Shown: positions 16,287 through 24,124 of the stretch, one piece after another | How positions within the stretch are numbered: position 1 is the first letter of the stretch | How the letters are laid out: each line of letters begins with the position of its first letter | The notes under the pieces: model-generated | Told to the model about the DNA's origin: nothing | The model's database searches: none | What the model saw: the letters and a program-made list of their open reading frames with translations, nothing else | Source of the DNA: Prevotella sp. | GTDB taxonomy: Bacteria; Bacteroidota; Bacteroidia; Bacteroidales; Bacteroidaceae | DNA: 34,397 nucleotides | Assembly: GCA_017615355.1 (NCBI GenBank) | Contig: JAGAAJ010000121.1 | Location: forward strand, 1-34,397 | Direction: 5' to 3' | Program-made: the position numbers and the translations under genes

Positions 16287-16292
16287 GCAAAT

Positions 16293-16373
16293 CCCACGGC
16301 TTGGGACTTTTGTCCCAGGCCGTGGGACTTTTTTCCCAAGCCTTGGGACTTTTTTCTTAAGCTTAGGGATTCC
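16293..16373. repeat. 21-bp tandem repeat with palindromic cores (3 units plus a degenerate fourth)
   Basis: Units start at 16293, 16314, 16335 and (degenerate) 16356, exactly 21 bp apart. Each has the form CCCA-n5-TGGGACTTTT; the third core, CCCAAGCCTTGGG, is a perfect palindrome about a central C. Because 21 is a multiple of three, the array stays open in several frames, including that of merR beyond its stop. The last unit overlaps the end of the pectinesterase gene. Confidence 0.9.
16334..16355 (+). terminator. Possible terminator of mdh-merR within the 21-bp repeat
   Basis: TCCCAAG and CTTGGGA form a compact stem followed by CTTTTTT. The two upstream units offer weaker hairpins with T tracts (CTTTTGT and CTTTTTT). 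Together they could terminate plus-strand transcription ahead of the convergent pectinesterase gene. The stems are short, so the call is moderate. Confidence 0.5.
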
Positions 16374-21163: not shown

Positions 21164-21958
21164 TTAAAAGCCGAGCACGCAGTTCACGCCGATGGCATTG
21201 TTGGCCAGCGAGCGGGTGTCGTTGAGCATACTGCCATTGATGACGGCAGGACGCAGCTTCAATGAGAGGTCCTTGGAGATGTCGAAGACCGAGAGCTCCG
21301 CATCGACATAGGCATCGATGACCGAGATGGCATAGACACCCAGCATCACGAAGAAGCTAAGGTCGCGATAGCGGCGGAAGCGGTCCTTACGTTTCCTGAA
21401 AATCTCCTTGTATCTGTCCTCGTTTGCCGGCGTAATCTGCCGTCCCAGGTGCAGGAACTTGTTGTAGCTGGCCGTGCCAGGGTCGTCGTCCATGATGTCG
21501 AGATAGGCCTGTGCATAGTCCTTGTACATCATATTGTTCCAGCGCATGGCGTAGATGCAGCCCATGAATCCGCCGTAGACGAGGGGCAGCTTCCAGTATT
21601 TGCGGTTGTATATCTGTCCGCCGCCAGGGATGACGAGGGCCAGCCACAAGGCCCGCTGCGGATCGGGAGTCCATGTGCTCCAGTCGCGCTCTTTGTTGAG
21701 AGTTGAGCGTTGAGCGTTGAGAGACATTTGTTCTATAACAGATAGGGAGTCATCTATTGCAAATGAAGAGTCTCTCAACTCTAAACTCTCAACTCTTAAC
21801 CTTGACTGATATATTGAGTCAAGGGCCATGACGATGGAGTCGGGCACCTCGGTCTGCGCCGATGCAGGAATAGCAAACAGCATGAAAAGCATAAGCCTGC
21901 CCAAGCCCTTCCAAAGGGAGGGGCGTTCGGTTATATGATCTATCAGACTTTTCTTCAT
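21164..21958 (-). CDS. DUF5683 membrane protein with repeat-derived segments
   Basis: Protein of 264 residues. The hydrophobic stretch LMLFMLFAIPASAQ (about 22-35) looks like a signal peptide or membrane anchor; then a linker to about residue 92; then the DUF5683 core (PQRALWLALVIPGGGQIYNRKYWKLPLVYGG) with two or three membrane-associated segments and a conserved basic loop. Function is unknown; in my recollection it sits between parB and a transglycosylase gene in many Bacteroidales. Three repeats are built into the gene: residues 12-22 (RPSLWKGLGRL) come from a 29-bp dispersed repeat, and residues 53-62 and 79-88 come from inverted heptamer arrays. The part before the hydrophobic stretch is therefore not ancestral, and translation from an internal ATG at codon 23 or 26 is possible. 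Confidence 0.9.
   Translation of the reverse strand: MKKSLIDHITERPSLWKGLGRLMLFMLFAIPASAQTEVPDSIVMALDSIYQSRLRVESLELRDSSFAIDDSLSVIEQMSLNAQRSTLNKERDWSTWTPDPQRALWLALVIPGGGQIYNRKYWKLPLVYGGFMGCIYAMRWNNMMYKDYAQAYLDIMDDDPGTASYNKFLHLGRQITPANEDRYKEIFRKRKDRFRRYRDLSFFVMLGVYAISVIDAYVDAELSVFDISKDLSLKLRPAVINGSMLNDTRSLANNAIGVNCVLGF
21695..21722. repeat. Heptamer array A in the DUF5683 gene (4 units)
   Basis: Plus-strand units GTTGAGA, GTTGAGC, GTTGAGC and GTTGAGA. On the coding strand they encode SLNAQRSTLN (residues 79-88). The array is inverted relative to array B, 50 bases away; the inner edges GTTGAGAGAC and GTCTCTCAAC pair perfectly over 10 bp. Confidence 0.88.
21773..21800. repeat. Heptamer array B in the DUF5683 gene (4 units)
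   Basis: Plus-strand units TCTCAAC, TCTAAAC, TCTCAAC and TCTTAAC. On the coding strand they read as GTTGAGA-type units and encode RLRVESLELR (residues 53-62). This is the inverted partner of array A, and the only in-gene array here read through in the GTTGAGA direction. Confidence 0.88.
21895..21923. repeat. 29-bp inverted repeat, copy 1, inside the DUF5683 signal region
   Basis: GC-rich element with a CCAAGCCCTTCC core next to AAAGGGAGGGG. It matches the reverse complement of copy 2 (21978-22006) at 24 of 29 positions, and several mismatches would be G-U pairs in RNA. On the coding strand it encodes RPSLWKGLGRL. Confidence 0.85.
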
Positions 21959-22012: not shown

Positions 22013-22927
22013 CTACAGGCCGCAGACCGCCATAATCCTTGCCAGCTCTTCCTCATCGGCGAAGGGGATGCTGATCTTGCCCTTGCCGCTGGCCGAGCAG
22101 GTGAGCTGCACCTTGGCGCCGAGGAACGAGGTGAGACGCTGACGGGCATCCACCATTGCCTTCGGCAGCTGTGCCTTGGCCGAGATTCTCTTCTTTGCCG
22201 TCTGCACGTCCTCGCCCTGCTTCAGCATCTGTACCATTTCCTCCACCTTGCGCACGCTGTACTGATTCTTCTGCACGTCGCGGAAGAGCTTCAGCTGCAG
22301 CGAAGGCGAGTCGAGGGCGAGCAGCGCACGGGCATGGCCCATGTCTATCTCATGGTTCTTCAGCGACATCTGTATCTGTGCGGGCAACTTCAGCAGACGC
22401 ATATAGTTCGTCACGGCGGTACGGCTCTTCCCCACCCTCTCGCTGATCTTCTCCTGCGTCATGCCGGTCGTCTCAGCCAGGTGCTCGTAGGCCAGGGCTA
22501 TCTCGATGGCGTTGAGGTCTTCGCGCTGGATGTTCTCCACGAGGGCCAGCTCCATCACGTTCTCGTCGTCGACGGTGCGGATATAGGCGGGGATGGCCTT
22601 CAGCCCAGCACGCTGAGAGGCACGCCAGCGGCGCTCACCTGCAATGATCTGATAGCGGTCGGGAGCCACCTGGCGCAGGGTGATGGGAGCAATGATACCC
22701 ATCGTCTGTATGCTGGCGGCCAGTTCCTGCATCGACTGCTCGTCGAATTCACGTCGCGGCTGGTCGGGGTTGGGTTCAATCTGCTCGATGGGAATCTCGT
22801 TGAGGTTCGACGAGCCCTGTGTCCTCACGTCGCTCGTGTCAATCAAGGCATCCAGGCCGCGGCCGGTGCCCATATCGTCCAGGCCACGGCCCAGCACGCT
22901 CTTGTCATATTTCTTTCTAACTGCCAT
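22013..22927 (-). CDS. parB: Chromosome-partitioning protein ParB
   Basis: DNA-binding CTPase of 304 residues that loads at parS sites and organises the replication-origin region with ParA. A basic N-terminus (MAVRKKYDKSVLGRGLDDM) provides the ParA-stimulating tail. The ParB/Srx-type fold includes PNPDQPRREFDE and the CTP-binding motif GERRWRA (residues 97-103). The helix-turn-helix region has MTQEKISERVGKSRTAVTNYMRLLKLP and a C-terminal dimerisation domain follows. Length is normal. It follows the four-helix-bundle cassette by 18 bases and precedes DUF5683. Confidence 0.96.
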   Translation of the reverse strand: MAVRKKYDKSVLGRGLDDMGTGRGLDALIDTSDVRTQGSSNLNEIPIEQIEPNPDQPRREFDEQSMQELAASIQTMGIIAPITLRQVAPDRYQIIAGERRWRASQRAGLKAIPAYIRTVDDENVMELALVENIQREDLNAIEIALAYEHLAETTGMTQEKISERVGKSRTAVTNYMRLLKLPAQIQMSLKNHEIDMGHARALLALDSPSLQLKLFRDVQKNQYSVRKVEEMVQMLKQGEDVQTAKKRISAKAQLPKAMVDARQRLTSFLGAKVQLTCSASGKGKISIPFADEEELARIMAVCGL

Positions 22928-22943
22928 AACATCTTTGATTAGA

Positions 22944-22964
22944 GTTTAGGGTTGAGAGTTGAGA
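22944..22964. repeat. Right heptamer array of the cassette (3 units)
   Basis: Units GTTTAGG, GTTGAGA and GTTGAGA on the plus strand, with a degenerate GATTAGA unit just before (22937-22943). On the coding strand the array encodes the last residues SLNSQP and the TAA stop of the four-helix-bundle gene. Confidence 0.85.
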
Positions 22965-23320
22965 GACTTTACAAACGAATACCGAAGTCCTGAAAGCATT
23001 TTTGCTACAGTCTCTACTCTTCCCTCTACTGTTCTAAAAACATCTTCATTTATATAATTAACTCTGTAGGCAATTTCCATCTGACATAAAACCTCCATCA
23101 AGGAAGTATAAGCCATACCTACGAAATGAGCCTTTTCTTTGTCCGAAGCCCTTCCGACACCTTCCACCACGTTTGAAGGAATCGAAACGACAGCCCTGCG
23201 CAATTGGTCACCAAGTGCATATTTCTCTTCTTTTGGAAAATGACCAACTATTTCATAGACATATTCTACCAAGTCGAGAGCACTATAATAAACCTTTAGT
23301 TTTCTGAAATTGAATTCCAT
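22946..23320 (-). CDS. Four helix bundle protein (23S rRNA intervening-sequence protein family)
   Basis: Protein of 124 residues in the S23/IVP four-helix-bundle family, first known from intervening sequences in 23S rRNA genes and structurally related to the Avd accessory protein of diversity-generating retroelements. Diagnostic features are the N-terminal FRKLKVYYSALDLVEYVYEI helix, the SIPSNVVEGVGR turn between the second and third helices, and a basic third and fourth helix. Members form pentameric barrels in known structures; the biological role is unsettled. The last six residues (SLNSQP) are encoded by the flanking heptamer repeat. It has lower GC than its neighbours and interrupts an otherwise tight parA-parB pair, so it looks acquired. 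The start at 23320 fits the usual N-terminus. Confidence 0.93.
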   Translation of the reverse strand: MEFNFRKLKVYYSALDLVEYVYEIVGHFPKEEKYALGDQLRRAVVSIPSNVVEGVGRASDKEKAHFVGMAYTSLMEVLCQMEIAYRVNYINEDVFRTVEGRVETVAKMLSGLRYSFVKSLNSQP

Positions 23321-23343
23321 AGCACCAAGAAATGTCTCTTATC

Positions 23344-23364
23344 TCTCAACTCTTAACTCTCAAC
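23344..23364. repeat. Left heptamer array of the cassette (3 units)
   Basis: Units TCTCAAC, TCTTAAC and TCTCAAC on the plus strand, inverted relative to the right array. The parA stop codon (23360-23362) lies inside the outermost unit. Confidence 0.88.
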
Positions 23365-24124
23365 TATTTTTTGCGATGATTTCCTTTGCCAATGCGAGGT
23401 GGTTCTTCGAACCCGTTGAGTCGGCATCGTAGAGGATGACGGGGAGGCCGTGTGAGGGGCTCTCCGAGAGTTTCACATTACGCTGGATGACGGTCTTGAA
23501 CACCAGCTCCTGGAAATGACGTTTCACCTCGTCGTAAATCTGGTTGGCCAGACGGAGGCGCGAGTCATACATCGTCAGCAGGAAGCCCTCAATCTCGAGC
23601 TTCGTGTTCAGCTTCGACTTGATAATCTTGATCGTGTTCAGCAGCTTCGAGATACCTTCCAGGGCAAAATACTCGCATTGCACGGGGATAATCACCGAGT
23701 CGGCCGCCGTGAGGGCGTTCACCGTGATGAGGCCCAGCGAGGGCGAGCAGTCGATGAGAATATAGTCGTATTCCTTGCGGATGGGCTCCAGCAGGTTCTT
23801 GATCACACGCTCGCGGTTGTCCAGGTTCAGCATCTCTATCTCGGCACCCACCAGGTCGATATGGCTGGGGATGATGTCCAGTCCCTCAATATCAGTAGTA
23901 TAGATGGCCTCGCGCACGTCAGTCTTGTCGATGATGCACTCATAGAGCGAGCAGTCCACCTGACTGATGTCCACGCCAAGGCCGCTGGAGGCATTAGCCT
24001 GCGGGTCGGCGTCCACCACCAGCACGCTCTTCTCCAGCGTGGCCAGCGAGGCCGCCAGGTTTATGGTCGTCGTGGTTTTTCCCACGCCACCTTTTTGGTT
24101 TGCTAAAGCAATGATTTTTCCCAT
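23360..24124 (-). CDS. parA: Chromosome-partitioning ATPase ParA/Soj
   Basis: Deviant Walker ATPase of 254 residues that binds DNA as an ATP dimer and is stimulated by ParB to move the origin region. The deviant Walker A motif KGGVGKTT is at residues 11-18, the VVDADPQANAS segment follows, and the DYILIDCSPSLG Walker B region is clear. Length and start are standard for chromosomal ParA. It is the first gene of the operon with the four-helix-bundle gene, parB, DUF5683, mltD and rel. The final residues AKNS and the TGA run into the heptamer array, so the original end was probably altered by the insertion. Confidence 0.96.
   Translation of the reverse strand: MGKIIALANQKGGVGKTTTTINLAASLATLEKSVLVVDADPQANASSGLGVDISQVDCSLYECIIDKTDVREAIYTTDIEGLDIIPSHIDLVGAEIEMLNLDNRERVIKNLLEPIRKEYDYILIDCSPSLGLITVNALTAADSVIIPVQCEYFALEGISKLLNTIKIIKSKLNTKLEIEGFLLTMYDSRLRLANQIYDEVKRHFQELVFKTVIQRNVKLSESPSHGLPVILYDADSTGSKNHLALAKEIIAKNS

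Follow-up and report, generated by a model that had tools for sequence, protein, structure and literature searches.

We show here that one IVP/S23 gene lies between two complementary arms, each of about four tandem units of mostly 7-11 nt, and that this S23 element occupies particular operon junctions in some relatives and not in others, encodes a conserved protein and is oriented in the sense of transcription. Arms-only copies, many with the inner cap seen at the ends of the S23 element, are scattered in the genome of the DNA analyzed, a stretch of 34,397 nucleotides from Prevotella sp. (hereafter the window, which is one whole contig of genome G000; 89.7% complete). The cassette in the window is apparently one copy of a widespread insertable unit that carries its own repeat family. 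We give even chances to the reading that the S23 element is a small intercistronic insertion that is copied by way of a repeat-reading S23 ring and is an operon relative of the intervening sequence (IVS) of 23S rRNA.

A preliminary description of the window had noted an IVP/S23 gene between inverted TCTCAAC-type arrays, lower in GC than both neighbors and placed inside a parA-parB pair, and our analysis bears this out (Table 1). The S23 protein of the window belongs to the IVP/S23 family, exceeding the curated cut-offs of both PF05635 (E 3.8e-33; 114.3 bits against 33.8 in the profile search) and TIGR02436 (107 bits against 24). The GC content of the element is 0.387, compared with 0.550 for parA and 0.605 for parB, and only 0.4% of the 421-nt segments of the window are that low. 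The arrays also enter the adjoining reading frames in the way proposed: the 5' arm encodes the stop codon of parA, a TGA within AGTTGAGAG, and the 3' arm encodes the tail SLNSQP and the stop codon of the S23 gene itself. Both ends of the element have inner caps (GACATTT and GACTTTA). In the predicted RNA fold of the element, the arms are paired and the S23 gene lies in the loop of the inverted-repeat stem, with a z of -2.1 that is only moderately better than chance (2/100 shuffles folded as well). Sequences within two mismatches of TCTCAACTCTCAAC occur at 13 places in the window (shuffled mean 0.38, maximum 2). PF05635 has two matches in G000, the window gene and L002, and the latter is also flanked by inverted heptamer arrays, with TAATGCA as the unit.

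Table 1. Features at and around the S23 element of the window (positions count from the first letter of the window)
Feature	Position	Strand	Evidence or remark
IVP/S23 four-helix-bundle gene, 124 aa (P0001)	22946..23320	-	PF05635, TIGR02436, dN/dS
3' arm (in the sense of S23), tandem TCTCAAC heptamers; GTTGAGA on the + strand	22944..22964	-	encodes S23 tail and stop
5' arm (in the sense of S23, GTTGAGA..), tandem heptamers, inverted relative to the other arm; TCTCAAC on the + strand	23337..23364	+	encodes parA stop codon
Inner cap adjoining the 3' arm, GACTTTAC toward the center	22965..22972	+	GAC cap also on other G000 arrays
Inner cap adjoining the 5' arm, GACATTT toward the center	23330..23336	-	
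parA, upstream neighbor, co-directional with S23	23360..24124	-	PF13614 E 2.3e-71
parB, downstream neighbor, co-directional with S23	22013..22927	-	PF02195 and PF17762
Arms-only hairpin, TCTCAAC unit and S23-type inner cap	21695..21800	.	inside DUF5683 coding sequence
DUF5683 gene	21164-21958	-	DUF5683 E 3.6e-52

Because L002 has a different heptamer, we asked whether S23 genes generally sit between inverted tandem arrays of any unit. PF05635 matched at E 1e-3 or better in 87 of 100 genomes of the genus, with 0 to 15 copies each (13 genomes had no match). We collected S23 loci from the best 30 of a longer match list, 60 further stretches, the window loci and 10 added loci; hmmsearch gave 110 matches, corresponding to 103 distinct S23 proteins, of which 102 had both flanks, nearly all from the same genus. 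The left 250-bp flank of each gene was aligned to the reverse complement of the right one with a threshold score of 14, and the other genes in the fetched loci served as controls. This threshold was reached by 86/102 S23 genes versus 5/165 control genes, and a score of at least 25 by 39/102 versus 0/165; 16/102 S23 genes of this mostly genus-level set stayed below 14. The top-scoring control genes themselves have array-like repeats in their flanks. Swapped flanks passed in 173/2000 cases, a high value for a control because S23 genes of one clade share units. In other Bacteroidota (30 best loci, 198 genomes) the score was passed by 17/30 S23 genes versus 0/7 control genes, and 13/30 loci fell below it; the signal in the phylum is weaker and its controls are few. 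In plasmid records (17 of 21 matching records, 16 cyanobacterial and one from Azospirillum, with related copies each counted) 16/17 S23 genes passed versus 2/41 annotated control genes. Six further places, one on a record already used and one on a Gemmatimonadota plasmid, included five with a score of at least 14; the sixth, L311, has a short ORF, a score of 8.5 and an array upstream only. Among the 10 added loci, the flank scores were 16 for one of Ca. Stahlbacteria, 22.5 for one of Ignavibacteria, 19 for one of Flavobacterium and 11 for another Bacteroidetes locus, L158. Genes other than S23 seldom have an inverted pair of arrays around them. The preliminary description had made its cassette idea depend on arrays being less frequent beside unrelated genes, and this holds for inverted pairs, as counted above, but not for TCTCAAC as such, which stands at many other places in G000.

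The arms share a common build. Among arms of at least 20 nt, 77/84 had a clear period versus 17/84 shuffles; the period was 7 in 35 arms, 8 in 22, 9 in 7, 10 in 6, 11 in 5, and 6 and 12 once each, and the 77 arms contained a median of 4.1 units (quartiles 3.1 and 4.4). Read toward the center, 77 of 86 arms were purine-rich and 8 purine-poor, and the GC skew was positive in 80 versus 6. TCTCAAC (GTTGAGA on the opposite strand) is one of many units, which include GAGTTGAC and TAATGCA. Other IVP genes flanked by TCTCAAC arrays, for which the preliminary description had suggested a search, were present in G097 and G072; other units are, for example, TAATGCA at L002 and GGGAGTTAAAG in G059.

Across the 86 loci scoring at least 14, the similarity of the arms rises with the similarity of the S23 proteins (Mantel r 0.555; permutation maximum 0.130 in 1000 permutations). 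This comparison comprised 3458 locus pairs from different genomes and different junctions, where loci with unclustered neighbors were treated as different junctions. Dissimilar S23 genes within the same genome had dissimilar arms (mean 0.210, 34 pairs), and similar ones had an arm similarity of 0.358 (17 pairs, some of which are tandem duplicates). Whatever the genome or junction, the array unit tracks the S23 protein; we therefore count the arms as part of the element, and these data show that gene and arms travel as one unit. The correlation between arms and protein is one of joint travel and on its own does not demonstrate binding. As the arms follow the S23 protein, we rejected a fixed TCTCAAC target.

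S23 genes sit in operon gaps, in the sense of transcription. With codon-scored neighbors within 400 bp, 81/81 S23 genes were co-directional with both neighbors versus 54/73 control genes, and codon-scored calling gave 85/89 when both neighbors were called; the cruder longest-ORF calling gave 81 co/co, 12 co/anti, and 5 anti/co among 98 S23 genes. The recurrent junctions, named by eye from the protein ends, are presumably sdhA-sdhB (13), pta-ackA (5), recA (6), parA-parB (7), and others. On a tree of the S23 proteins (a quick method, 128 columns, 33 open forks), the 11 junction labels require 13 changes versus 38.5 when shuffled, and several junctions were entered more than once. This clustering of labels indicates that most copies at a junction were inherited in place, with several separate arrivals.

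Related genomes have both filled and empty parA-parB junctions, a comparison that the preliminary description had called for. ParB was found in 92/100 genomes of the genus, and among the best 30 loci examined parA was visible in 29, of which 4 contain S23 in the gap and 25 do not. In the S23-free loci the gap measures 2-62 bp in 23 cases and 101 and 155 bp in two; given these short gaps, the pair is normally adjacent, as had been supposed. Inspected by eye, 18 of these 25 gaps contain no array-like sequence, five do (L074, L075, L079, L089, and L090) and two are doubtful (L083 and L091). The filled junctions of the window, G097 and G072 have S23 genes that are 84-100% identical, with TCTCAAC arms, and the one of G059 has an S23 that is only 25% identical, with GGGAGTTAAAG arms. 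In G092, whose ParB is 90% identical to that of the window, the junction is empty. Three further genomes carry a window-type S23 (78-97%), again at parA-parB, and in all six genomes with a window-type S23 (78-97% identity to the window's) the gene is always found there. Inheritance in place together with loss explains most of this pattern for the window copy.

Nostoc plasmids provided the clearest junctions. Three loci (L293, L296, and L310) share an operon with 89-99% nucleotide identity. One junction is filled in L293 and L310 (the S23 ORF of L310 is shortened) and empty in L296; a second shows the reverse, with an insertion in L296 and none in L293 or L310. Different heptamers mark the two insertions, and the empty junctions contain no array sequence. 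The second junction is a stop/start overlap at which the ATG is doubled; no duplication was seen at the first, and neither gave a clear target-site duplication. This presence and absence shows that the S23 element is mobile over evolutionary time; a strictly vertical gene is refuted by it. The cassette reading of the preliminary description is thus supported: gene and inverted arrays form a unit that some relatives have at a given junction and others lack, and it is wider than was proposed. It is very improbable that S23 is a normal inherited operon gene, flanked by repeats by chance and without mobility beyond loss: the junction labels do cluster on the S23 tree and the six window-type copies all lie at parA-parB, but neither the reciprocal filled and empty junctions in closely related Nostoc operons nor unrelated S23 genes at one junction fit such a gene. 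No phage record matched. In L310, on Nostoc plasmid pNPM1, the shortened S23 ORF is succeeded by one more hairpin, additional repeat arms and a further open frame, apparently a case of nested insertions at one junction.

The TCTCAAC arrays of G000 are not special to the S23 gene; they are dispersed tandem 7-mers. A TCTCAAC 15-mer has 319 overlapping placements in G000 at up to two mismatches, several of them as short hairpins; the count of 232 for the reversed pattern is no valid control because reversing this heptamer yields a rotation of itself. A GAC inner cap adjoins 20/33 TCTCAAC arrays in the fetched G000 loci (two of these being the arms of the S23 element itself) compared with 1/33 on the outer side, and 18/31 when the arms of the S23 element are excluded. 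In G097 the cap is present at 7/12 arrays, six in the S23 locus itself and 1/5 elsewhere; S23-free G010, whose stretches (L283-L288) were chosen for arrays, has it at 0/27. An inverted partner within 150 nt accompanies 17/33 arrays in G000, 0/12 in G097, and 12/27 in G010. In G046, AATAGACTT lies directly inside the array at 3/13 array loci, as it does at the 3' end of the S23 element L047, and is lacking at the other 10/13; its background is 5 occurrences in 797 kb of random windows. The hairpin within the DUF5683 gene (Table 1) sits in a linker, and the reading frame continues across it as LRVESLELRDSS...LNAQRSTLN; a clean empty site for it was not obtained, the linker being variable among the aligned relatives.

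To some extent, arrays go with S23 genes at the level of genomes. Sampling of random 20-kb windows for arrays of period 7, 8, 10, or 11 yielded 23 calls in eight S23-rich genomes (400 kb, placed away from the listed S23 genes) versus 3 in eleven genomes whose S23 matches were weak or absent (397 kb; two of these 3 calls are one AG repeat counted twice). Exact TCTCAAC 15-mers number 184 in G097, 93 in G072, 69 in G035, 46 in G010, and 41 each in G000, G018, and G008, and are absent from 59 of the 100 genus genomes. G097, G072, and G000 carry window-type S23, and G010 and G018 are among the 13 genomes without an S23 match. On average, then, scattered arrays are truly associated with S23, though not strictly so. 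G010 and G018 are rich in arrays and have no S23 match, and G010 has array hairpins as well, so that both can form or be maintained in the absence of S23.

These S23-free arrays, some of which form inverted pairs in G010, and the five to seven array-like gaps among the 25 S23-free parA-parB loci are what one would expect if the arrays were ordinary repeats made by slippage into which S23 genes recombine. We disfavor this reading as improbable. The unit tracks the S23 protein across genomes and junctions, the empty Nostoc sites have no arms, and inner caps are common to arrays and S23 ends in G000 and at the three G046 loci. The earlier proposal that the cassette targets simple heptamer arrays amounts to this reading and is not supported: 18/25 empty parA-parB gaps (by eye) and the Nostoc empty sites are free of arrays, and the unit follows the protein.

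REPINs are hairpins made of short inverted pairs; the associated RAYT gene is for the most part inherited and has its own type of inverted repeat on either side. The S23 element resembles this system in being an inherited gene with its own inverted repeats and, in G000 (not in G097), dispersed inverted-pair hairpins. It differs in that the repeats are tandem arrays, S23 has no known nuclease activity and no Y1 transposase was found in G000. One could still imagine that a Y1 (RAYT/IS200) transposase mobilizes REPIN-like hairpins and that S23 is a passenger, since inverted pairs separated by short loops make up many of the arms-only copies in G000 and PF01797 is present in 63 of the 100 genus genomes. 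We hold this to be extremely improbable: at E 1e-3, PF01797 has 0 matches in G000 (89.7% complete) and in the array-bearing G046, G008, G079, and G080. RAYT as a necessary mover was rejected given the lack of a PF01797 match in G000.

The S23 protein of the window is under purifying selection (dN/dS 0.06-0.16 against five relatives over 112 codons, values that are rough as dS exceeds 1 in four of the five). The only solved structure matched at E 1e-3 was 2gsc (XCC0516), with five chains; this relative is described in a section of PMC4990558 as a toroidal homopentamer, and the same source, where it touches on the matter, gives the function of S23/IVP proteins as not known. We envisage that the S23 element is transcribed with its operon and that its RNA would fold as the IVS of 23S rRNA does, the gene lying in the loop. 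RNase III may then cut the element out, or cut it, with the flanking reading frames unharmed. The S23 protein, as a five-membered ring like its solved relative, may bind its own repeats with about one unit per subunit. Through this binding and a host enzyme, the whole unit as well as arms-only derivatives could be copied to new sites.

Alternatively, the S23 element could be a post-transcriptional control module that is not selfish, in which the ring binds purine-rich mRNA repeats, the scattered arrays are a regulon, and insertion is a past event. TRAP, for instance, binds (G/U)AG repeats. The purifying selection on S23 (dN/dS 0.06-0.16), the fixed sense orientation, the purine-rich arms of about four units, and the inheritance in place of most copies would all suit such a module. 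What makes it unlikely, in our judgment, is that copies are present or absent and unrelated S23 genes occupy one junction, that their number ranges from 0 to 15 per genome, and that the operons in which they lie are of many kinds (parA-parB, further ones assigned by eye, and cas genes).

IVP proteins are known from inserts in 23S rRNA that are bounded by inverted repeats, and we read the window element as the protein-operon relative of this intervening sequence. In Coxiella, according to the relevant part of PMC4990558, RNase III cuts the IVS, which is about 430 nt long and forms an inverted-repeat stem whose loop holds a co-transcribed S23 gene, with 2-3 tandem GACAGAT heptamers just upstream of the gene. 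The S23 gene in a stem loop, the length and the heptamers beside the gene are thus shared features, as far as that account goes. In contrast to the IVS, the window element lies between the protein genes parA and parB and not in an rRNA helix, both arms of S23 elements are tandem arrays with clade-specific units, and related arrays are scattered in the genome. The S23 gene studied here is also under purifying selection, whereas the Coxiella copy is reported, in the same part of that paper, to decay. In bacteria of the CPR, IVP ORFs occur in insertions of both 16S and 23S rRNA, as stated in a passage of PMC11270868.

Dispersed tandem heptamers have been described before. The portion of Rehm et al. 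(2015; PMC4692102) used here gives 70 convergent inverted pairs of GGGAATC heptamers in Xanthomonas campestris (70 and 75 in two Xanthomonas genomes) and few pairs of GGGGA(C/T)T heptamers in Nostoc, where PCC 7120 has no such array on plasmids. The arrays of the window genome resemble these G-rich heptamers and the cyanobacterial STRRs in being tandem heptamers dispersed in the genome. Those arrays, as that portion presents them, are mostly intergenic; the window genome has at least one copy in coding sequence. No protein partner is named there, in contrast to the tie to an S23 gene found here. In a passage of MacGregor (2015; PMC4679880), the mobile element is speculated to be a protein that binds the repeats. 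Among open PMC full texts (subscription papers and preprints being outside the scope), we found no paper linking S23 genes outside rRNA to tandem arrays, and S23 and heptameric repeats co-occur only in PMC4990558 among those found. PF05635 resembles Avd of the diversity-generating retroelements (DGR) in a comparison drawn in PMC10053308. The S23 protein has a fold homologous to that of DGR Avd and bAvd; it differs in missing the cut-offs of both Avd profiles (PF22296, 28.9 bits against 40; DivGenRetAVD, 34.4 bits against 80), and no reverse transcriptase was present among the four proteins scanned (S23 and three neighbors).

With the tie between S23 genes and arrays, the protein family and the heptamer arrays each acquire a role that can be tested, and a code that pairs proteins with cognate repeats is predicted. 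Tentatively, and with more doubt than confidence, we suggest that short tandem repeats of bacteria, namely cyanobacterial STRRs, Xanthomonas GGGAATC, and Bacteroidota heptamers, could have their missing partners in the S23 proteins. These would form nuclease-free minimal mobile elements across phyla, whose pentameric ring would read its cognate repeats and propagate them both in cis, giving S23 elements, and in trans, giving arms-only copies; the rRNA IVS would be only the rRNA branch of this class. In the literature found, we know of no partner protein of bacterial heptamer arrays. S23 elements would also supply intercistronic hairpins, which could influence how operons of Bacteroidota and Cyanobacteria are expressed.

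S23 genes with repeat arms also occur in cas loci on plasmids of Anabaena sp. 90, Pseudanabaena galeata, and Picosynechococcus PCC 7003 (L292, L294, and L295), between cas6 and cas4 and between cas10 and a cmr3-type gene. PMC3936711, in the part relevant here, counts 18 IVP genes in cas loci, one of them between Cmr2 and Cmr3, and a figure legend of PMC10910872 names the IVP family. From the plasmid loci, IVP genes that have been classed as CRISPR-associated would seem to be insertions, and the S23 element would explain their place inside cas operons without making them cas genes.

Tandem clusters of similar S23 genes are found at L120 (G094; three copies) and L128 (G044; two copies), and the arms of L120 hold an extra small palindrome. 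The window also contains, at 16292-16369, a tandem 21-mer, TCCCAAGCCTTGGGACTTTTT, in 3.7 copies with each unit palindromic, which is unrelated to the heptamers.
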